The translations under genes and the position numbers were made by a program. The notes under the pieces were generated by a model. The model was not told the DNA's origin. It worked only from the letters and a program-made list of their open reading frames with translations, and did not search any database. Positions 37,229 through 49,303 of a stretch of DNA of 64,000 bases are shown here, one piece after another. Location: positions 248,001 through 312,000 of the forward strand of contig JAGNIU010000001.1 of assembly GCA_018000995.1 (NCBI GenBank). The letters run 5' to 3'. This stretch comes from Bacteroidia bacterium (GTDB lineage: Bacteria; Bacteroidota; Bacteroidia; B-17B0; Aurantibacillaceae). Positions within the stretch are counted from its first letter, which is position 1, and each line of letters opens with the position of its first letter.

Positions 37229-37246
37229 TTAACATTAAGTTTACAT
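37229..37246. promoter_or_regulatory. Possible Pho-box-like direct repeat
   Basis: TTAACAT-TAAG-TTTACAT, two heptamers with an 11-bp period, as at the phosphate genes further downstream. It is 125 bp upstream of the YwqK-type gene; the link is tentative. Confidence 0.35.
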
Positions 37247-39622: not shown

Positions 39623-40306
39623 TTAAAATTCGAATTTATACCCTACGCCCTTAACCGTTCGGATATTATCTTCGCCAAGTTTTTCGCGAAGTTTGCGGAT
39701 GTGTACATCAATAGTTCTGTCGCCCACAACCACTTCATCACCCCAAATTTTTTCTAAAATAAACTCACGGGTAAATACTTTACCGGGTTTAGAAACTAAT
39801 AGTTCGATTAATTTAAATTCTTTCTTTGGTAACTGAATTTCAGCTCCTGATTTAAACACTAAGTATTTTTCAAGATCGATTTTTATTTCTCCAAACTCTA
39901 ATACCTTTTCAACTTTAGGAGTATTGTTTCCTAAGCGGCGCAACAAAGCTTTAATTCTGCTTATAAATACGCGCGGTTTAATTGGTTTTGTGATATAATC
40001 ATCGGCACCTGAATCAAAACCTGCAATTTGTGTATAATCTTCGCTTCTTGCACTTAAAAACACAATTAACAAGTTGGCCAGCTCCTTATTTTCGCGCATG
40101 ATGCGGCAAGTTTCAATACCATCCATCTCCGGCATCATTACATCTAACACTATTAAATGTGGCTTGTGTTTTTTTGCTAAGGCTATGCCATCGTGACCGT
40201 TAAGTGCTGTATAAACTTCGTAACCTTCTTTTTTTAAATTGTACGACAGAAAGTTCAGAATATCCTCCTCGTCATCTACCAATAATATTCTATAAGTATC
40301 GCTCAT
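39623..40306 (-). CDS. PhoB-like response regulator (OmpR family)
   Basis: The 227-residue regulator has a full receiver domain: acidic pocket Asp11/Asp12, phospho-acceptor Asp55 (IVLDVMMPEMDG), Ser85 and Lys107 (ADDYITKPIKP). An OmpR/PhoB winged-helix DNA-binding domain follows at about 130-226 (EFILEKIWGDE, RTIDVHIRKLREKLGE, VKGVGYKFE). No histidine kinase gene is adjacent. It is divergent from a TonB-receptor gene whose promoter carries 11-bp repeats, and the phosphate transport genes follow. It is therefore the probable phosphate-starvation regulator of this island, likely recognising those repeats. Confidence 0.88.
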   Translation of the reverse strand: MSDTYRILLVDDEEDILNFLSYNLKKEGYEVYTALNGHDGIALAKKHKPHLIVLDVMMPEMDGIETCRIMRENKELANLLIVFLSARSEDYTQIAGFDSGADDYITKPIKPRVFISRIKALLRRLGNNTPKVEKVLEFGEIKIDLEKYLVFKSGAEIQLPKKEFKLIELLVSKPGKVFTREFILEKIWGDEVVVGDRTIDVHIRKLREKLGEDNIRTVKGVGYKFEF

Positions 40307-40386
40307 AATTAGCCGTAAAATTATGGCAAAAATTAACCGCGCATGTTAAATTAACTTTAAATAAACGCAACTTAGGGTAGTGTACA

Positions 40387-40426
40387 TTTAACTTTCTGGT
40401 AACATTAAAATTAAGATATCCTTAAA
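40387..40426 (+). promoter_or_regulatory. Pho-box-like array upstream of the TonB receptor
   Basis: Four heptamers, TTTAACT, GGTAACA, AATTAAG and CCTTAAA, begin at 40387, 40398, 40409 and 40420, an exact 11-bp period. A GAATTTTG -7-like box follows at 40436-40443. The divergent phoB-like gene starts 80 bp away on the other side. Confidence 0.6.
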
Positions 40427-40461
40427 CTGATAAGCGAATTTTGTGCTTTAATATAATGCAC

Positions 40462-43350
40462 ATGACTAAGTTTTTATCTGCACTCTTTTTATTTATTTCA
40501 CTCTGTTCCCTTTCTCAAACCGGAAAAATTACAGGAAAAATTATTGATGCCAAAACCGGCGAAACCCTACCGGGCGCAACTGCTGTATTAGAAGGTACAA
40601 CAAAAGGAGCGAGTGCCGATTTTGACGGAAACTTTTCATTAAACAACGTGCCTGCAGGAAAAGTAAATTTAATTATGAGTTACATTTCATACGACTCTAA
40701 GAAATTTACGGATGTAGAAGTTAAAGCCAATGATGTTACCAACATAAATGTTCAGTTAGAGCCATCGTCTTCGACCACTTTTTCGGAAGTAGTTATTGTT
40801 GTTGAAATGATTAAAGAAAATAACGCTGCACTAACAATGATGCAAAAAAATAATGTTAGTGTTAGTGATGGCGTTTCGGCAGAAACCATTAAACGTACGC
40901 CTGATAGAAATACCGCCGATGTATTAAAGCGTGTTAGTGGCGTAACTATTATTGATGACAAATTTGTTATCATCCGCGGATTAAGTGATCGCTACAATGT
41001 TTCGTTTCTAAATAATTCCCCATTACCAAATACTGAAGCTGATAAAAAGGCTTTTTCGTTTGATATTTTTCCGGCGAACATGTTAGATAATATTATTGTC
41101 AACAAAACTGCCACACCCGATATGCCGGCCGATTTTGCAGGAGGTATTGTTCAAATAAATACTAAAAATATTCCAGACAAAAATTTTATTTCTTTATCTC
41201 TAAGTAGTGGTTATAATACTATTACAACCGGAAAAGACAAGCTTACTTATAAAGGCGGGAAATATGATTGGTTAGGTCTTGATGATGGGTCGAGAAGTAT
41301 GCCAAACAACATTCCGGAGGCGAATGACTTTCCACAACTAAATTCCGAAAGAGGAAATCTTGCCAAAAATTTTAAAAACGATTGGAGTTTAGGCAGCGAT
41401 AAATTTGACCCGAATCTTTCAGCGCAATTCGCCATTGGACAGAATTTTAAACGCAAAGAAAAAGATTTCTTCGGCGTTTTGTTTTCGTTAACCTACAACA
41501 ACTCAAAAAGTTTTTATAAACGCGAACGTTATGCTTATTCTAACAACTCAAGTGGAAGTTCCGAAAATCAATTAGATGATAAATACTTATTAGAAACATA
41601 TAGCAATCAAACTTTAGCAGCTTCTATTTTAAATTTCTCCTTTAAGTTAAATGAAAACCACTCCATCAGTTTCAAAAATATTGGTTCCATTAGTTCTGAT
41701 AATAAATTAATTCATTCGAATGGCTCAACAGGATTAAGTAATAACAATCCTGCAATTAATGACATTACAACGCGTTTCTTTAAAAGCAGCACCGTTTACT
41801 CCGGTCAATTAACGGGCGAACATTATATGCCTAAACTAAAACTTAAAGCGAATTGGGTTGGCTCTTATGGCAAAACAAGTCGTACTATTCCTAATTACAG
41901 AACAACGTCCTACTCTTATTTTGGAAAACCAAATGATCCGGATGATCCTTACTCAGTTTACTATGATGTTATGCCATCTGCTATTATTGCGAATGCAAGT
42001 AGTGGTCCGGATTATTCAGGTTACAGATTATACTCTAAATTAGATGAAAACATAAAAAGTTTCCGCGCTGATGTGTCTCGCAGTTTTAAAGTATCTGAAA
42101 ATTTTAAACAGGACGTAAAAGTTGGTGGTTACTACCAATTCAGAAATAGAACATTTTATAATCGCCAATTAGGGATAATAAAAAGTTCTTCGAAATTTAA
42201 ATCTTCCCTTCTCTACTTGCCGGCTGATCAAATTTTTGCTGAAGAAAATATGGGACAGGTTATTCCCAGTAATGTGGCGGGCTATCCAGACTCTTCAGGA
42301 TTTTTATTGTATGATATGACGAAGCCTAGTGATATTTACGATGCCAACTCTTCTTTATTTGCACATTACATCATGCTCACTTCAAAAGTGAAAGATTGGT
42401 TCACTGCTGTTTATGGTTTGAGAATTGAAAACTTTACACAAACTGTTAATGGCCACAAAAAGAAAAACGACACGCTTGCTTTTGTACAAGGACAAGTAGA
42501 TTATTTGCCATCAATAAATTTAATTTTCGGACTAAACTCGAAACAAAACATTCGAGCGAGTTATTCTAAAACTCTAAACCGTCCGGAGTTCAGAGAATTA
42601 GCGCCGTTTAATTTTTATGATCCTGAAACACGATTGTTGTTTAGCGGGAATGATACTTTAAAACAATGTTCGATAAATAATTACGATTTACGTTGGGAAA
42701 TTTATCCCGGTCGAGGACAATTACTTTCGGTTAGTGGTTTTTACAAAGATTTTAAAAATCCAATTGAAATGTCAGTTCAAGAATACGCGCCTGATGAAAT
42801 TACTTTTAAAAATTCGCCGAAAGCGGTTGTATATGGCGCTGAATTAGAATTCAGAGTTATTTTAGGTTCTTTATTTAAAACAGACTCGTGCAAGTTTTTA
42901 AACAATCTAAGTTTGTTTTCTAATCTATCTTATATTAAATCGGAAGTTGAAGTTTACAGTCCGGGTTCAACAACCGAAAAGTATAAACGTCCAATGCAAG
43001 GACAATCGCCTTATATTGTTAATGGCGGTATTTTGTATAATGACACAGAATTAGGATTTAGTGTTGGTGCTATGATAAATAGAATTGGTCCTCGAATTTT
43101 TAACATAGGAAGTAAAAATGAACCGGATCGTTGGGAAAACGGAAGAACAGTTTTAGATTTCCAAGCATCAAAACAATTTTTGAAAAACAGGTTAGATGTG
43201 CGCTTTAGTATAAAAGATGTGTTGCATCAGCAATTATACTTCTATCAAAATGGTGATAAGAATAGCGCTTTCAATAAACAGAAAGATTTTGTGAACTTCT
43301 CACAAACCTATGGTTCGGTTTATGCGTTACAAATTAGTTTCAAATTGTAA
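40462..43350 (+). CDS. TonB-dependent receptor with carboxypeptidase-like N-terminal domain
   Basis: The 962-residue outer-membrane protein starts at ATG 40462 with a signal peptide (TKFLSALFLFISLCSLSQ). A carboxypeptidase-D regulatory-like domain follows (about 20-105, GKIIDAKTGETLPGATAVL). The plug domain covers about 115-230 (RTPDRNTADVLKRVSGVTII, FVIIRGLSDRYN, ADFAGGIVQINTK). A 22-strand-type barrel follows, ending in the aromatic YALQISFKL. The promoter's 11-bp repeats and the neighbouring PhoB-like, porin and PiT genes suggest uptake of a phosphorus-containing compound. The ligand is inferred. The TTG at 40441 is a less likely start. Confidence 0.92.
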   Translation: MTKFLSALFLFISLCSLSQTGKITGKIIDAKTGETLPGATAVLEGTTKGASADFDGNFSLNNVPAGKVNLIMSYISYDSKKFTDVEVKANDVTNINVQLEPSSSTTFSEVVIVVEMIKENNAALTMMQKNNVSVSDGVSAETIKRTPDRNTADVLKRVSGVTIIDDKFVIIRGLSDRYNVSFLNNSPLPNTEADKKAFSFDIFPANMLDNIIVNKTATPDMPADFAGGIVQINTKNIPDKNFISLSLSSGYNTITTGKDKLTYKGGKYDWLGLDDGSRSMPNNIPEANDFPQLNSERGNLAKNFKNDWSLGSDKFDPNLSAQFAIGQNFKRKEKDFFGVLFSLTYNNSKSFYKRERYAYSNNSSGSSENQLDDKYLLETYSNQTLAASILNFSFKLNENHSISFKNIGSISSDNKLIHSNGSTGLSNNNPAINDITTRFFKSSTVYSGQLTGEHYMPKLKLKANWVGSYGKTSRTIPNYRTTSYSYFGKPNDPDDPYSVYYDVMPSAIIANASSGPDYSGYRLYSKLDENIKSFRADVSRSFKVSENFKQDVKVGGYYQFRNRTFYNRQLGIIKSSSKFKSSLLYLPADQIFAEENMGQVIPSNVAGYPDSSGFLLYDMTKPSDIYDANSSLFAHYIMLTSKVKDWFTAVYGLRIENFTQTVNGHKKKNDTLAFVQGQVDYLPSINLIFGLNSKQNIRASYSKTLNRPEFRELAPFNFYDPETRLLFSGNDTLKQCSINNYDLRWEIYPGRGQLLSVSGFYKDFKNPIEMSVQEYAPDEITFKNSPKAVVYGAELEFRVILGSLFKTDSCKFLNNLSLFSNLSYIKSEVEVYSPGSTTEKYKRPMQGQSPYIVNGGILYNDTELGFSVGAMINRIGPRIFNIGSKNEPDRWENGRTVLDFQASKQFLKNRLDVRFSIKDVLHQQLYFYQNGDKNSAFNKQKDFVNFSQTYGSVYALQISFKL

Positions 43351-43746
43351 TTAACGATTCGAGCGGAGTTTAATTAGAGTGGTGTTTAAATTCACCATAA
43401 TGTCGATGCCTCTTTTTGAAGTGTGCCTTAGTTTAACTTCAGGGTAATTGTATTTTAGCTCTTTATTTAAACTTTTATAATCTGTATTAAATTCACAAAT
43501 GTTTTTGTAAACCGCTTTTTTTAGCTTCATTTTAAATGTGGGTGATTTTACATAATGTTGCTTAAACACTTTTATACAATCACTCAGTTTTACTCTTGTA
43601 GTTGCAATCGGAATTTTTTCCTCTGTTATAATCTGCTTTAATGCTTTTGTAATTAATCCGTATGATAAGTTTACAGATTCAATGTAATACTGATGCTTAT
43701 ATGCACTTTTATTTTTCTCAACTAATTCTTTAATACTAAGAGCCAT
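43351..43746 (-). CDS. Small helical protein, function unknown
   Basis: The 131-residue protein is basic, rich in Lys and predicted all-helical (KSAYKHQYYIESVNLSYGLI, then LKKAVYKNICEFNTDYKSLN). It has no signal peptide or membrane segment. The YxxxEYxxxLxYG-like spacing of the first helices is faintly like HEPN-type proteins, but no motif confirms this. It lies inside the phosphate island on the opposite strand, touching the TonB receptor stop. Confidence 0.65.
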   Translation of the reverse strand: MALSIKELVEKNKSAYKHQYYIESVNLSYGLITKALKQIITEEKIPIATTRVKLSDCIKVFKQHYVKSPTFKMKLKKAVYKNICEFNTDYKSLNKELKYNYPEVKLRHTSKRGIDIMVNLNTTLIKLRSNR

Positions 43747-43871
43747 AATTCAAATTTGTACAAATATGTTAATTTATGTATTTACTAATTGTAAATATTT
43801 GGTTAATTAAACATTACCAATGTGGTTCTAAAATAAAATAAAGCTTGTTTATGCTACCGCATTTTATCTGC

Positions 43872-43933
43872 GGGTTAATATTAGGTTAATCTAACAATGA
43901 CGATTTGCTAACACCAAGTTAATCGTAGGGTAA
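43872..43933 (+). promoter_or_regulatory. Pho-box-like array of six heptamers
   Basis: Heptamers GGGTTAA, AGGTTAA, ACAATGA, TTGCTAA, AAGTTAA and AGGGTAA begin at 43872, 43883, 43894, 43905, 43916 and 43927, an unbroken 11-bp period. The two middle ones are degenerate. TTACTTTG at 43945-43952 is a -7-like box 12 bp downstream, and the ATG of the T9SS protein is at 43974. Confidence 0.65.
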
Positions 43934-43973
43934 GCTTGTCGCATTTACTTTGCATCATAAAATTTATAAAATC

Positions 43974-45629
43974 ATGAAAAGAATTTACCAAACATTATTA
44001 TTAGCCTTATCGCTAACGTCGGGAATAGCACAAACTGCATTCTGGACACCAACTACCTACAAAGGAGCTTTCGATTGTTCAACTGCAATGTGGACAGACA
44101 GCTGGACCGAGTGGGATCCACAAAACAAAGTTTATCCTGCTGCAACAATGACTGTGAACGCAAACATCACAACAAACACAACATGGGCAACCGGACAAAC
44201 TATTTTATTACAAGGTCCTATTTATGTAAAAAATAATGCAGTATTAACTATTCAGCCGGGTGTTGTTGTTTTAGGTGATAAAGGAACGCCTAGTTCTTGC
44301 TTATTAATTACAAAAGGTTCGCAAATACAAGCAGTAGGTACAGCAAGTAATCCAATTGTATTTACATCTAACCAACCTGTTGGTGCCTCTAATCGTTCAG
44401 TTGGTGATTGGGGTGGAATTATTTTATGTGGTAACGCTGCATTAAATGTTCCTGGTGGAATTGCAAACATTGAAGGCTTAACTGTTACTGCTGATACAGA
44501 ATATGGTTCAACTTCTCCAAATCCAAATGATAACTCCGGTACATTACAATATGTACGTATTGAATTTGGCGGATACGTTTTTGCTGCTAATAAAGAAATT
44601 AATGGTTTAACAATGGGCGGTGTTGGTAAAAACACAACCATTGATCACATTCAAACTTCATTTACAAATGATGATGGATTTGAGTGGTTTGGTGGAAATG
44701 TAAATGCTAAATACTTAGTATCGTTCAGAAATTTAGATGATGATTTTGATACTGACTTCGGTTATAGCGGAATGGTTCAATTTGGTTTAATTGTACGCGA
44801 CCCTGCTTTAGCTGACGTTCCTGCGGTTTCAACATCAGAAGGATTTGAATCAGATAACGACGCAACGGGAAGTTCAAATACACCTTTAACATCAGGTATA
44901 TTTTCAAACATCACTGCAATCGGGCCTTACCGTGGAAGTTCTTCAACAATTTTAGCTGCAGGTTACGAGCGCGCTTTACGTTTAAGAAGAAATACAAACT
45001 TAAAAGTATTCAACTCTATTTTTACTGATTTCAAAAAAGGATTACATGTTGACGGAACTGCTGCTGACGCAAATGCCGGAAGTGGTGCTCTTAAATTTAA
45101 ATATAATGTAATTGCAACAACATCTGGTCTTACTCCAAAAACAATTGTAACAACAACTGCTAATACTAATTTTAACACAACTTGGTTTGGAACTAATTCA
45201 AATGATTCATTAGTCAGCACTTCTGGTTTATTAGTAACTCCATATAATTACACAAGTCCTGATTACCGTCCTGTTTGCACAAATACTTTAGTATCAGGTG
45301 GTGCAAATTTTAGTGATCCTGCTTTTGTTTCAGGTGGAATTTTAGGTGTTAACGAATTTGACAATTCAACTAAACTAGTTGGTTTATATCCAAACCCTAG
45401 CACAGGCGAAACGAATCTTGTAATTAATACAACTTCTGCATTTACTATTTCAGCTGATGTGTATTCTGTTACAGGACAATTAGTGGCTAAGCCTTACACA
45501 AATTATAATGTTGAAACAGGAATGAACGTTTTACCAATTAATGCTACCGAATTAGCAAATGGCATTTATTTTATCACTGTACAATACGGTTCAAAAACTG
45601 AAACCATTAAATTAGTTGTAAATAAATAA
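43974..45629 (+). CDS. T9SS-exported beta-helix-like surface protein of the phosphate island
   Basis: The 551-residue protein starts at ATG 43974 (signal peptide RIYQTLLLALSLTSGIAQ). The middle (about 60-450) is rich in Gly/Thr/Asn with repeated strands, such as TILLQGPIYVKNNAVLTI and TLQYVRIEFGGYVF, and looks like a right-handed parallel beta-helix. The acidic run LDDDFDTDFGYSG may bind calcium. The type A T9SS sorting domain is at about 475-551 (LYPNPSTGETNLV). It is strongly linked to the array of 11-bp repeats upstream, so it is probably induced on phosphate limitation. The target is unknown. Confidence 0.86.
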   Translation: MKRIYQTLLLALSLTSGIAQTAFWTPTTYKGAFDCSTAMWTDSWTEWDPQNKVYPAATMTVNANITTNTTWATGQTILLQGPIYVKNNAVLTIQPGVVVLGDKGTPSSCLLITKGSQIQAVGTASNPIVFTSNQPVGASNRSVGDWGGIILCGNAALNVPGGIANIEGLTVTADTEYGSTSPNPNDNSGTLQYVRIEFGGYVFAANKEINGLTMGGVGKNTTIDHIQTSFTNDDGFEWFGGNVNAKYLVSFRNLDDDFDTDFGYSGMVQFGLIVRDPALADVPAVSTSEGFESDNDATGSSNTPLTSGIFSNITAIGPYRGSSSTILAAGYERALRLRRNTNLKVFNSIFTDFKKGLHVDGTAADANAGSGALKFKYNVIATTSGLTPKTIVTTTANTNFNTTWFGTNSNDSLVSTSGLLVTPYNYTSPDYRPVCTNTLVSGGANFSDPAFVSGGILGVNEFDNSTKLVGLYPNPSTGETNLVINTTSAFTISADVYSVTGQLVAKPYTNYNVETGMNVLPINATELANGIYFITVQYGSKTETIKLVVNK

Positions 45630-45644
45630 TTTATTCTTATTCCT

Positions 45645-45677
45645 AAAAGCCTGCTTTTAATGAAGCAGGCTTTTTTT
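45645..45677 (+). terminator. Rho-independent terminator
   Basis: AAAAGCCTGCTT-ttaatg-AAGCAGGCTTTT followed by a T-run, after the T9SS gene. Confidence 0.93.
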
Positions 45678-45699
45678 AATCCATTCAACAAAACATTCC

Positions 45700-46374
45700 T
45701 TGCATTCAGCTATTATATATTCAGTTAGCAACTCCAACTCAGAATTCTATAGAAAGAGTTTAACGAAGCTTAATTTAAAAGTGACGAATGTGTATGCTTA
45801 CGATGACTTTGAGCGTTTTTTGAAAACCGAAACCTTTGATATTTTAATAATTGATTTGGAATTAGATAATACAGATGCTATTACTGTTATTAAAGAAATC
45901 AAATTAATGTATGTTAAGCGGGCGCTTTATGTTGTTGTTTGCTCTAATAAAGCCGATGACTTTATTCAGATAAGTGCGTTTAATTCGGGTGCCGATGATT
46001 TTGTTGACTTGCCTGTTAATCCAACCGTTTTCGAATCTAAAATTAAAGCGCTTCTTAAAAGAATGGAGCCGGAAAAAAATATACCTGAAAATGGTTTTAT
46101 TTATATTGACCAGGAACAGTACAAAATTATTATTGGCAAAAATGCTTATTCATTACCGCGATTAGAATTCAGAATGGTGTCATTATTGTTTTCCAATCCC
46201 AATAAAATATTCTCGAAAGATGAGATTGCATCCGAGATTTGGCAGAACAAAGACATTTCCTCCAAACGAACTATTGATATTCATATCCGTAATATTCGTC
46301 GTGCCCTTGGTGATGATATAATTAAAACTTATCGGGGCATCGGTTACTGTTTAAAACAAGGGCCAAACGCCTAA
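45700..46374 (+). CDS. OmpR-family regulator with a degenerate receiver domain
   Basis: The 224-residue protein matches the PhoB-like regulator at 39623-40306 in layout and detail (GADDFVDLPVNPTVFESKIK against GADDYITKPIKPRVFISRIK). The acidic pair is replaced by SVSNSNSE, and the conserved Lys is replaced by Leu (about 104). The acceptor Asp (about 52, LIIDLELD) is kept. The winged-helix domain is intact (KRTIDIHIRNIRRALGDD, YRGIGYCL). It may act independently of phosphorylation. The start is a TTG at 45700, immediately after a terminator; no ATG is available nearby. It precedes the porin and PiT genes. Confidence 0.85.
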   Translation: MHSAIIYSVSNSNSEFYRKSLTKLNLKVTNVYAYDDFERFLKTETFDILIIDLELDNTDAITVIKEIKLMYVKRALYVVVCSNKADDFIQISAFNSGADDFVDLPVNPTVFESKIKALLKRMEPEKNIPENGFIYIDQEQYKIIIGKNAYSLPRLEFRMVSLLFSNPNKIFSKDEIASEIWQNKDISSKRTIDIHIRNIRRALGDDIIKTYRGIGYCLKQGPNA

Positions 46375-46402
46375 GTATTTGGTTTTTAATAGATTTTATC
46401 GC

Positions 46403-46420
46403 TTAACAATTCCTTAACAT
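46403..46420 (+). promoter_or_regulatory. Pho-box-like repeat upstream of the porin gene
   Basis: TTAACAA-TTCC-TTAACAT, two heptamers with an 11-bp period, lies 80 bp before the GTG at 46482. A TTTCTTTG box is at 46451-46458. Confidence 0.6.
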
Positions 46421-46481
46421 TAAATTGATGTAGCATTTACAATCTTACTATTTCTTTGCGCTTAATTAATATTTAGTTAAC

Positions 46482-47774
46482 GTGAAGAAAACTTTATTTT
46501 TACCTTTCTTTCTTGTAGCATTTACCCTTAACGCTCAAGATTCTCCAACAGTAACCACAACCGTATCAAACGACAGTTTATTGAAAAGCATTAATGCTTT
46601 AAAAAAAGAAGTTACTAATATCAAGAATTTGAAAGTCACCGGCTATGTTCAACCACAATATCAATACTGTGATTCAGCCGGCGCACCATCTGTAGCGGGC
46701 GGGGATTTTTCAAATGGAGGAAGTAATTACTTTAGTCGGTTTATGATGCGTCGAGGCCGCATTAAAACTACATACACCTACGAAAATGTAGTTTTGATGG
46801 TGAATGTTGATATCACTGAAAAAGGGTTAAACATGCGCGAAACGTATGCAAAAATAACTGACCCTTGGGTAAAAATGTTTAGTTTAACTGCTGGTTTACT
46901 ACAAACGCAATTTGGCTTTGAGCTTACACAATCCTCTAGTGAAAGAGAAACTCCAGAGCGTGCCAGATACAATCAAACCTTATTTCCAACTGAACGGGAC
47001 TTAGGTGCTTTTGGCTCGATGGTGTTCCCAAAATCTTCTAAACTTCATGGTTTAAAATTAGATGTTGCTGTAATGAATGGGGCAGCTGGTGTTGCTCCTG
47101 AATTTGATTCTCATAAAGATTTTACTGGTCGCTTACAATATTCTAAAACTACTAAAAGCAAAAAATTAAGTTTTGCAATAGGAGCTTCGTATTATCACGG
47201 TGGATACAGAACAGGTAAAGTAAAAGATTACTCGTATGCTAATCTAGCCAATGGCGATAAAGGTTTTGAATTTTCAAAGGACACTGCAAATTACAATCGG
47301 GTTGCAAAAAGAGAATATATGGGAGTGGATGCCCAAGCTTCTGTAAATTGGAAAATTGGTACTACAACTATTCGTGCCGAATATATTATGGGCGAAAATC
47401 CAGGAACAGCAAGCACAAATAGAAGCCCAAGTGTAGCTCCAACATCATCACTTTATCACCGAAATTTTGACGGGGCTTACTTTTATTTAATTCAAAATAT
47501 CGGAAAGTCAAAATTTCAAGTCGTTGCTAAATACGATTGGTTTGATCCGAATGTTAAAATTGCCGGGAAAGATATTGGAAAAGCAGGAACGAATACTAAT
47601 CTGGGAGACATTCGATTTGACACTTATGGATTTGGGATTAATTATCACGTGAATCATAATTTAAAAATCACAGCTTATTACGATCTGGTTCAAAACGAAA
47701 TAACAGAGGTAAATGCTTACAAAAAAGACATTATTGATAATGTGTTCACTTTAAGAATGCAAATAAAATATTAG
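46482..47774 (+). CDS. Phosphate-selective porin O/P-like outer-membrane protein
   Basis: The 430-residue protein starts at GTG 46482 with a signal peptide (KTLFLPFFLVAFTLNAQ). A short coiled segment (about 30-50) precedes a barrel matching the porin O/P family (KVTGYVQPQYQYC, FMMRRGRIKTTYTYEN, then YAKITDPWVKMFSLTAGLL). The barrel ends in LRMQIKY. The Pho-box-like repeat and the PiT transporter 122 bp downstream support phosphate uptake across the outer membrane. It is present as a single gene with no oprP-type regulator other than the two OmpR-family genes in the island. Confidence 0.9.
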   Translation: MKKTLFLPFFLVAFTLNAQDSPTVTTTVSNDSLLKSINALKKEVTNIKNLKVTGYVQPQYQYCDSAGAPSVAGGDFSNGGSNYFSRFMMRRGRIKTTYTYENVVLMVNVDITEKGLNMRETYAKITDPWVKMFSLTAGLLQTQFGFELTQSSSERETPERARYNQTLFPTERDLGAFGSMVFPKSSKLHGLKLDVAVMNGAAGVAPEFDSHKDFTGRLQYSKTTKSKKLSFAIGASYYHGGYRTGKVKDYSYANLANGDKGFEFSKDTANYNRVAKREYMGVDAQASVNWKIGTTTIRAEYIMGENPGTASTNRSPSVAPTSSLYHRNFDGAYFYLIQNIGKSKFQVVAKYDWFDPNVKIAGKDIGKAGTNTNLGDIRFDTYGFGINYHVNHNLKITAYYDLVQNEITEVNAYKKDIIDNVFTLRMQIKY

Positions 47775-47836
47775 ACTCTTTAAGTTTTTTAGCCCCTTGA
47801 GGATTTGGCACTATAAGTGAATTAAAACTTTAAAGC

Positions 47837-47854
47837 TTAACATTAATTTAACAT
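47837..47854 (+). promoter_or_regulatory. Pho-box-like repeat upstream of the PiT gene
   Basis: TTAACAT-TAAT-TTAACAT is a perfect heptamer repeat with an 11-bp period. A CATCTTTA box follows at 47861-47868, 29 bp before the ATG at 47897. Confidence 0.7.
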
Positions 47855-47896
47855 GCTTACCATCTTTAATAAATAATTTTAAAAAAAATAAATTCT

Positions 47897-49303
47897 ATGT
47901 TTGGATTAACTACCGGCCTCGCCATTTTACTTATTGCATGTTTATTGCTAGCATGCTTTTTCGAATTCATTAACGGTTTTCACGATACTGCAAATGCAGT
48001 TGCAACCGTAATTTATACTAATTCCATGAAACCAACTGTTGCGGTTGTGTATTCAGGAATCTTAAATTTTATTGGTGTATTAACAGGTGGTATAGCAGTT
48101 GCTATGGGAATTGTAAACTTACTCCCCATGGAAGTGCTTGTTGATTCAAATGTGGGACATGGCATCGCCATGATTCTCGCCTTATTACTTTCTGCTATCA
48201 TCTGGAATTTTGGTACTTGGTATTTTGGAATTCCCGCTTCAAGCTCTCACACATTAATTGGTTCAGTAATTGGAATCGGTTTAGCATTTAATTTTTTACC
48301 TGGTGACATGGGCTTTACTGCAGTAAACTGGGATAAAGCAAAAGATACAGGACTAGCATTATTACTTTCTCCTTTAGCTGGTTTTAGTTTAGCGATTATC
48401 ATGATGTTCGTTTTTAAACGTTTTATTAAAAACGAAACTATTTATAAAGAACCAATTCCCGGCAAAACTCCTCCTATCTGGATTCGCATGTTGCTTTGGA
48501 TGACTTGCGGAATGGTAAGTTTCTTCCACGGACAAAACGACGGACAAAAAGGAGTTGGAATTTTAATGATGATTTTAATTGCAATTTTACCCGGACAATT
48601 TTCATTGGATGAAAAAATAAATTTGCAAAGTGTAAACGGAAATGTTTTTGAAATTCAAAAAATCATTGCTGCAACTGATACAACACAATTCGGTAAAGAT
48701 GAATTTAAACATTACAATAGCATTAAAAAACATGCCGCTTCATATTTTGCAGCAGTAGGCGCAGATAAAACCCGCGCTTCTGAAATTGCTTTAACAGATC
48801 GTTTCGAATTGAGAAAAGATGTTGTTAAATTAACTAAGGGTGCAGAAAAATTATTAAAGAGTCCGAACTTTGCTATCTCAGCAAAAGATTCAAAAAAATT
48901 AAAAGCTGAAATTAAAGAAGCAAAATTATTAGTGGAGTTTGCACCAAGCTGGGTAATTATTTTAATTTCTATTTCATTAGGATTAGGAACCATGATTGGA
49001 TGGAAACGCATTGTAAAAACAATTGGAGAAAAAATCGGCAAACAACACATGAGTTATGCTCAAGGCGCAAGTGCTGAGATGGTTGCTTCAGTTGGTATTG
49101 GAATGGCTTCTGCTTACGGATTACCGGTTTCAACTACGCACATGTTAGCTTCCGGGGTTGCGGGTTCGATGGTGGCAAAAAAAGGATTAAAGAATTTACA
49201 AAAGAAAACCATTACATCTATCGCCTTAGCTTGGGTTTTAACTTTACCGGTAACAATGGTTTTATCAGGCGGATTATTTTTATTATTCAGAGCATTGTTT
49301 TAA
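47897..49303 (+). CDS. PiT-family inorganic phosphate transporter
   Basis: The 468-residue membrane protein has both PiT signature repeats: GFHDTANAVATVIYTNSMKP near the N-terminus and ASVGIGMASAYGLPVSTTHM near the C-terminus. About ten helices lie around them. A soluble insert of about 110 residues (about 235-350, charged and helical) sits between the halves, in the cytoplasm or periplasm. PiT proteins couple phosphate, alone or as metal phosphate, to protons or sodium. The Pho-box-like repeat suggests control by phosphate. It is the last gene of the phosphate island, followed by a terminator. Confidence 0.95.
   Translation: MFGLTTGLAILLIACLLLACFFEFINGFHDTANAVATVIYTNSMKPTVAVVYSGILNFIGVLTGGIAVAMGIVNLLPMEVLVDSNVGHGIAMILALLLSAIIWNFGTWYFGIPASSSHTLIGSVIGIGLAFNFLPGDMGFTAVNWDKAKDTGLALLLSPLAGFSLAIIMMFVFKRFIKNETIYKEPIPGKTPPIWIRMLLWMTCGMVSFFHGQNDGQKGVGILMMILIAILPGQFSLDEKINLQSVNGNVFEIQKIIAATDTTQFGKDEFKHYNSIKKHAASYFAAVGADKTRASEIALTDRFELRKDVVKLTKGAEKLLKSPNFAISAKDSKKLKAEIKEAKLLVEFAPSWVIILISISLGLGTMIGWKRIVKTIGEKIGKQHMSYAQGASAEMVASVGIGMASAYGLPVSTTHMLASGVAGSMVAKKGLKNLQKKTITSIALAWVLTLPVTMVLSGGLFLLFRALF

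Follow-up and report, generated by a model that had tools for sequence, protein, structure and literature searches.

Direct TTAACA repeats with an 11-bp period precede genes of an island of about 8 kb within a 64-kb stretch of a Bacteroidia genome of 3.6 Mb (the whole 64-kb stretch is called the window), and these arrays are probably a real, class-wide Pho box. The island is a phosphate regulon, carrying the genes of a PhoB-type response regulator (RR1), a TonB-dependent receptor, a secreted protein with a type IX secretion system (T9SS) tail, a second regulator (RR2), a phosphate porin and the phosphate transporter PiT. That the arrays are Bacteroidia Pho boxes with RR1 as their predicted binder is considered likely on sequence grounds; linkage and conservation of the recognition helix point to RR1 as the candidate. 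Three features of a Pho box were found, namely tandem repeats at 11 bp, placement before phosphate-acquisition genes including pst, and a fixed position relative to the promoter core; an Escherichia coli-type CTGTCAT half-site was not found, the half-site being TTAACA. A preliminary description of this DNA had likened the layout to that of the E. coli box (7 + 4) and noted the different sequence.

Repeat arrays and promoter geometry

Sites were scored with a 21-bp matrix trained on 38 PiT and porin promoters, with same-genus regions and the window left out, and were positioned against the -7 box of the Bacteroidota promoter core, the strict form of which was searched as TAnnTTTG. The porin promoter (46403-46458, + strand; score 26.0) contains TTAACA at 46403 and 46414, 48 and 37 bp upstream of the -7-like box TTTCTTTG at 46451. 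In the PiT promoter (47837-47881, + strand; 23.5), TTAACAT at 47837 and 47848 stands 37 and 26 bp upstream of a weak -7 box, TAATTTTA, at 47874. The units of both pairs are exactly 11 bp apart. The TonB-receptor promoter (40388-40443, + strand; 12.2) comprises TTAAC at 40388, GTAAC at 40399, TTAAG at 40411 and TTAAA at 40422, followed by the -7-like GAATTTTG at 40436; the steps are 11, 12 and 11 bp, and the exact 11-bp spacing given in the preliminary description therefore holds for porin and PiT and not for the receptor array. Repeats were present in all four stretches named there, each preceding its gene, and a fifth site had been overlooked: the promoter of RR1 itself (40316-40360, - strand; 13.7), with TTAAA from 40360, TTAAC from 40349 and the -7 box TAATTTTA from 40323.

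Units before the T9SS gene had been read as running in the opposite orientation, as GTTAA. This was rejected: the promoter (43908-43952, + strand) carries CTAAC at 43908, TTAAT at 43919 and GTAAG at 43930 in the common orientation, matching the layout of the orthologues, and the -7 box TTACTTTG (43945) begins 37 bp after CTAAC, a spacing that is the same in the orthologous promoters L219 and L222 (CTAAC/T at -37, TTAAC at -26). GTTAA-like units phased by 11 bp do occur at 43874, 43885, 43918 and 43929, with poor ones at 43896 and 43907. The pair at 43874/43885 (43873-43889, - strand) has no counterpart in the T9SS promoters of L219 and L222; it is an extra, non-conserved element of uncertain role. 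The register 26/37 is used, in more or less degenerate form, by the TonB receptor, the T9SS protein, PiT and RR1, and the register 37/48 by the porin.

Exact TTAAC pairs at 11 bp occurred twice on the + strand of the window, both times in the island, which also holds the window's single GTTAA pair at this spacing (43874). Ranking of the 55 window genes by matrix placed porin and PiT first, followed by RR1 and the TonB receptor, the next gene reaching 3.9. Promoter orthology accounts in part for the ranks of porin and PiT but not for those of RR1 and the TonB receptor, two genes that the training set did not contain. Seven sites scored above 11 in the window, against none or one in each of six third-order Markov windows. 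Two further good sites lie on the + strand at 37229 (20.6) and 37666 (13.8), between minus-strand genes, from which they point away; neither a gene nor an RNA was recognised downstream.

Conservation in the family and before pst

PiT was present in 75 of 87 family genomes. Regions were fetched for 40 loci (38 from the family and two from Flavobacterium, the latter excluded from the pair count), with upstream sequence limited to 200 bp; 30 PiT loci had first been returned, and the exact pair stood in 23 of the 29 with readable upstreams. Across the fetched regions, TTAACN6TTAAC preceded 24 of 41 PiT genes and four of five porins called by blast. On the same strand of the PiT upstreams, spacings of 8-10, 12, 14 and 15 bp gave no pairs and 13 bp gave one. 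Only 13 of 419 other genes had the pair, and these were 11 PF07396 porins, one outer-membrane barrel protein beside PiT and one unrelated gene. A phylum-wide draw for the PiT type of this genome found it in six of 109 genomes, own genome included, too few for use. Tandem duplicate PiT genes were seen in several family genomes (L203, L204, L205, L207, L226 and others).

The repeats were phased with the promoter core. Measured from the best TAnnTTTG, NTAAC units lay 26 bp (20/40) and 37 bp (17/40) upstream in PiT promoters, and 37 and 48 bp upstream (13/19 each) in porin promoters; among 368 other genes, 5, 5 and 7 had NTAAC at 26, 37 and 48 bp, the background being 2.4 per offset. With 36 rows aligned on the pair, 17 promoters had TAnnTTT at offset 37, where the expectation per offset was 0.33.

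A second model derived from the same 38 promoters was run on whole genomes. Its best and second-best sites in the own genome were those of the porin and PiT, and the two best matches in G053 were PiT and porin. The three best in G003 preceded PiT, a porin-like gene (judged by eye) and the porin adjoining PiT, and in Flavobacterium SLB02 the best site preceded a gene that has a PiT-like transporter behind it. Weaker matches also fell inside genes and before unrelated genes. A conserved site was further noted before a secreted-protein gene (G000:C25:13241, L266; G053:C1:110880, L260), with an OmpR-class regulator 2.7 kb downstream; a relative of the secreted protein, by eye, is encoded in the phosphate island of G003 (L220, 15009-15959).

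Other families of the class were sampled through pst. PstC was detected in 42 of 119 class genomes, and was found neither in the own genome nor in four other family genomes on that list. The sample consisted of 40 pst upstream stretches from 26 families, 155 kb in total; for upstream counts 36 loci were used, since in three of the others the operon began beyond the stretch or too close to its edge and in a fourth no gene extended to the end. A small number of called starts are internal to longer genes, and some misses may reflect wrong starts. In the 36 upstreams of 300 bp (+ strand), TAAC pairs numbered 26 at 11 bp, 13 at 22 bp and 6 at 33 bp, with 0-3 at every other spacing between 4 and 39 bp. 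On both strands of all 40 loci, the counts at these spacings were 54, 31 and 22, against a mean of 5.8 (s.d. 1.9) elsewhere. Matrix scores of at least 12 were reached in 17 of the 36 upstreams (19 on either strand) and in 0 of 720 shuffles. Over the 155 kb, 52 sites passed threshold 12 against 8 in the reversed control, and 21 against 1 passed threshold 18. Sites were present in 26 of 40 loci and 18 of 26 families; they also preceded 19 of 119 other genes of these loci, many of which, judged by eye from their sequence starts, resemble PstS, PstC, porins and, in one case, phoB. In pst promoters the top five offsets from the -7 box were 48, 37, 26, 15 and 59 bp, all on the 11-bp lattice.

The Pho-box-like reading of the preliminary description is thus borne out by conservation before PiT and porins throughout the family, by recurrence before pst in other families and by helical phasing with the -7 box; in addition, the same PhoB-type regulator adjoins pst in some genomes of those families. 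Relatives of RR1 were found next to pst in six loci (54-63%, one gene being partial), with two shorter fragments besides, and relatives of the porin in pst loci numbered eight strong and three weak. A single Bacteroidia Pho box is moderately favoured, with TTAACA units at 11 bp on a lattice 15-59 bp from the -7 box, in registers of -26/-37 for PiT, -37/-48 for porins and several for pst, from which PhoB would activate the divergent -33/-7 polymerase of Bacteroidota at several one-turn steps; PiT would be the induced route where no PstC is found.

The predicted regulator and rival explanations

RR1 has the receiver and OmpR/PhoB winged helix of a PhoB orthologue, its relatives occur beside pst, and its Flavobacterium orthologue lies beside a kinase. 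Its recognition helix, DRTIDVHIRKLREK, was identical in all aligned RR1 relatives except for one G in place of D. In cells short of phosphate, RR1 would be phosphorylated by a PhoR-type kinase whose gene lies at another place in the genome; a candidate unlinked to the island, on contig C45, is 44% identical to the Flavobacterium PhoR candidate. RR1 would then bind, as tandem head-to-tail subunits, to TTAACA units spaced by one helical turn (11 bp). The proximal units overlap the -33 region or lie immediately upstream of it, and bound RR1 may recruit RNA polymerase to the -7 box, switching on its own gene and those of the TonB receptor, the T9SS-secreted protein, the phosphate porin and PiT. 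PiT is ordinarily a constitutive low-affinity carrier; since PstC was not found in the own genome, PiT and porin are probably the induced uptake route here. Bacteroidota have a major part in phosphorus recycling in soil, water and gut. A usable matrix allows class-wide prediction of the regulon, and the boxes offer a direct test of activator action on the unusual -33/-7 promoters.

Several results weigh against a class-wide Pho box bound by RR1. The matrix gave -1.2 for the T9SS gene, -14.5 for RR2, and -3.3 and -3.8 for the Flavobacterium phoB promoters; pst loci of eight of the 26 families had no site; and strict -7 boxes also grouped at 63-67 bp (12/37). A separate two-component locus has similar arrays, and OprP of F. 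johnsoniae is not induced by phosphate depletion (log2 -1.3, no significant change; available text of PMC8115612). The bare word was not enriched: the motif search proposed in the preliminary description gave 24 exact TTAACN6TTAAC in the own genome (three of them in the island) against 31 for the reversed pattern, two Flavobacterium genomes gave 31 against 63 and 26 against 66, and the pair combined with strict TAnnTTTG gave 5 against 5 in the control. With no excess from these counts, specificity rests on the matrix and the comparative data. The missing excess of the bare word would also suit chance or AT-rich promoter composition with no regulator, an explanation given almost no weight, as spacing peaks fall at 11, 22 and 33 bp only, reversed and shuffled controls are poor in sites, orthologous promoters are conserved and the units are phased with the -7 box.

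A more serious rival is that another OmpR-class regulator, RR2 or that of a locus on contig C17, binds the boxes, one element serving several two-component systems. The RR2 gene is located in the island, TTAAC/GTTAAA arrays with 11-bp steps adjoin the C17-type locus both in this genome and in G053, and two Flavobacterium genomes have a three-unit array beside a similar locus. The C17-type regulator, presumably RprXY-like, is a third type shared with Flavobacterium and comes with its own TTAAC arrays; the half-site therefore does not belong to PhoB alone. Its recognition helix is different (like RSMDVYIxKLRKY), however, and the regulator that recurs beside pst is RR1; RR2, the recognition helix of which also differs from that of RR1, lacks the acidic pair in its receiver and was the weaker match at every pst-linked regulator. 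This alternative is judged unlikely. Still less probable is ownership of the motif by a redox (ArcA-like) or other global regulator with phosphate genes as some of its targets, in which case the motif of Riemerella 'PhoP' would be its own. According to the available text of PMC9603813, that motif, TTTAACA, was obtained from DNA affinity purification sequencing (DAP-seq) with 583 peaks and called ArcA-like; a moxR-like gene follows one site in Flavobacterium SLB02, moxR being a Riemerella PhoP target in electrophoretic mobility shift assays (EMSA) (same source), and pstS rose 8-fold in a mutant (PMC5399024). Against a global regulator, exact pairs in the fetched family regions nearly all precede porins and PiT, and the sites in pst loci precede pst, porin-like genes and one phoB.

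The array at the C17 locus is a conserved multi-unit GTTAAA/TTAAC array (G000:C17:40979-41015, L004 and L311; G053:C1:959064, L251). It is flanked on one side by a histidine-kinase gene, behind which a response regulator is encoded, and on the other by a secreted-protein gene in divergent orientation. Far from phosphate genes lies a second paralogue of RR1 (72%; G000:C7:57609-58286, L172 and L218), also present in G053; it has the same recognition helix and no box was visible upstream.

Known boxes, island genes and Flavobacterium

The PhoP box of Bacillus subtilis consists of TTAACA-like direct repeats in Gram-positive promoters. Boxes of two 11-nt direct repeats are described in several phyla, including the E. 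coli PHO box bound by PhoB, where 7 conserved and 4 less conserved positions alternate near the promoter core (available text of PMC4415409); the E. coli half-site is CTGTCAT, whereas TTAACA is found here. The E. coli box is placed 10 bp upstream of the -10 element in the available text of PMC1906773, whereas the units described here start 26, 37 or 48 bp upstream of a -7 box. The same text gives the cyanobacterial SphR box as CTTAACCT with a 3-bp linker (11 bp), in tandem before pst and phosphatase genes; its half-site is nearly that found here, but the phylum, the promoter type (-33/-7 here) and the targets (porin, TonB receptor, T9SS protein and PiT here) differ. ArcA boxes of E. coli are likewise direct repeats with centres 11 bp apart, and arrays of 3-5 units at 11 or 22 bp are frequent (available text of PMC3798270), but serve another regulator and carbon-oxidation targets. 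In sequence the TTAACA box is closer to the SphR and ArcA boxes than to the E. coli PHO box. Riemerella anatipestifer PhoP is a Bacteroidota regulator for which TTTAACA are the most conserved DAP-seq letters, but the available text of PMC9603813 describes neither an 11-bp repeat nor phasing with a -7 box nor a set of phosphate targets. PhoB of Bacteroides fragilis shifts a 512-bp pstC promoter fragment with the site undefined (available text of PMC3547664), and putative Pho boxes are marked, with no sequence given, in plcP clusters of marine bacteria (available text of PMC4796936). In the open-access literature, no Bacteroidota phosphate-regulon operator was found with repeat, spacing and -7 phasing defined, the Riemerella logo and the B. 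fragilis gel shift coming nearest.

RR1 (39623-40306, - strand) was assigned by PF00072 and PF00486 (receiver and winged helix), its best full-length PDB match being RegX3. The TonB-dependent receptor (40462-43350, + strand) has CarboxypepD_reg and plug domains by Pfam, and a homologue beside phoB in Flavobacterium and at other loci. It is followed by a 131-aa protein (43351-43746, - strand) with no Pfam match, present in the same-genus islands L219 and L222, and by the T9SS-sorted secreted protein (43974-45629, + strand; Por_Secre_tail by Pfam), which by blastp is related to a protein encoded close to the TonB receptor in the phoB cluster of Flavobacterium. RR2 (45700-46374, + strand) was assigned as a second OmpR-type regulator from Pfam, translation and helix alignment; the N-terminus of its atypical receiver is without the usual Asp-Asp pair. 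RR2 is kept in the island within the genus and in G003. The porin (46482-47774, + strand) belongs to the phosphate-selective porin O/P family (PF07396, E 1.4e-5); a PF07396 profile search of the genomes returned none in the own genome, though hmmscan detects the window porin. PiT (47897-49303, + strand) matched PF01384 (PHO4/PiT) with E 2.8e-86. The gene set recurs, whole or in part, in the same genus (L219, L222, L225) and partly outside it (L220).

Flavobacterium SLB02 and Root186 were used as stand-ins for F. johnsoniae. In both genomes the genes of an RR1 orthologue (62%), of a TonB receptor and of a T9SS-protein relative form a group with those of a PhoR-like kinase and a porin O/P, and a family-28 glycosyltransferase comes next (Pfam for one genome). 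This gene set corresponds to F. johnsoniae Fjoh_0541-0546. Under phosphate depletion, log2 changes at Fjoh_0541-0546 are 5.4 for the glycosyltransferase, 3.1 for PhoB, 8.0 for the receptor and 9.9 for the lipoprotein, with 0.8 and no significant change for PhoR (available text of PMC8115612). A triple TTAACN6TTAACN6TTAAC was noted in the two Flavobacterium genomes (G087:C1:786513, L147; G088:C3:20782, L136) between kinase-like and outer-membrane protein genes. The box before the moxR-like gene of SLB02 lies at G087:C1:5619275 (L263), and the same pair is found in Root186 (G088:C16:233516).

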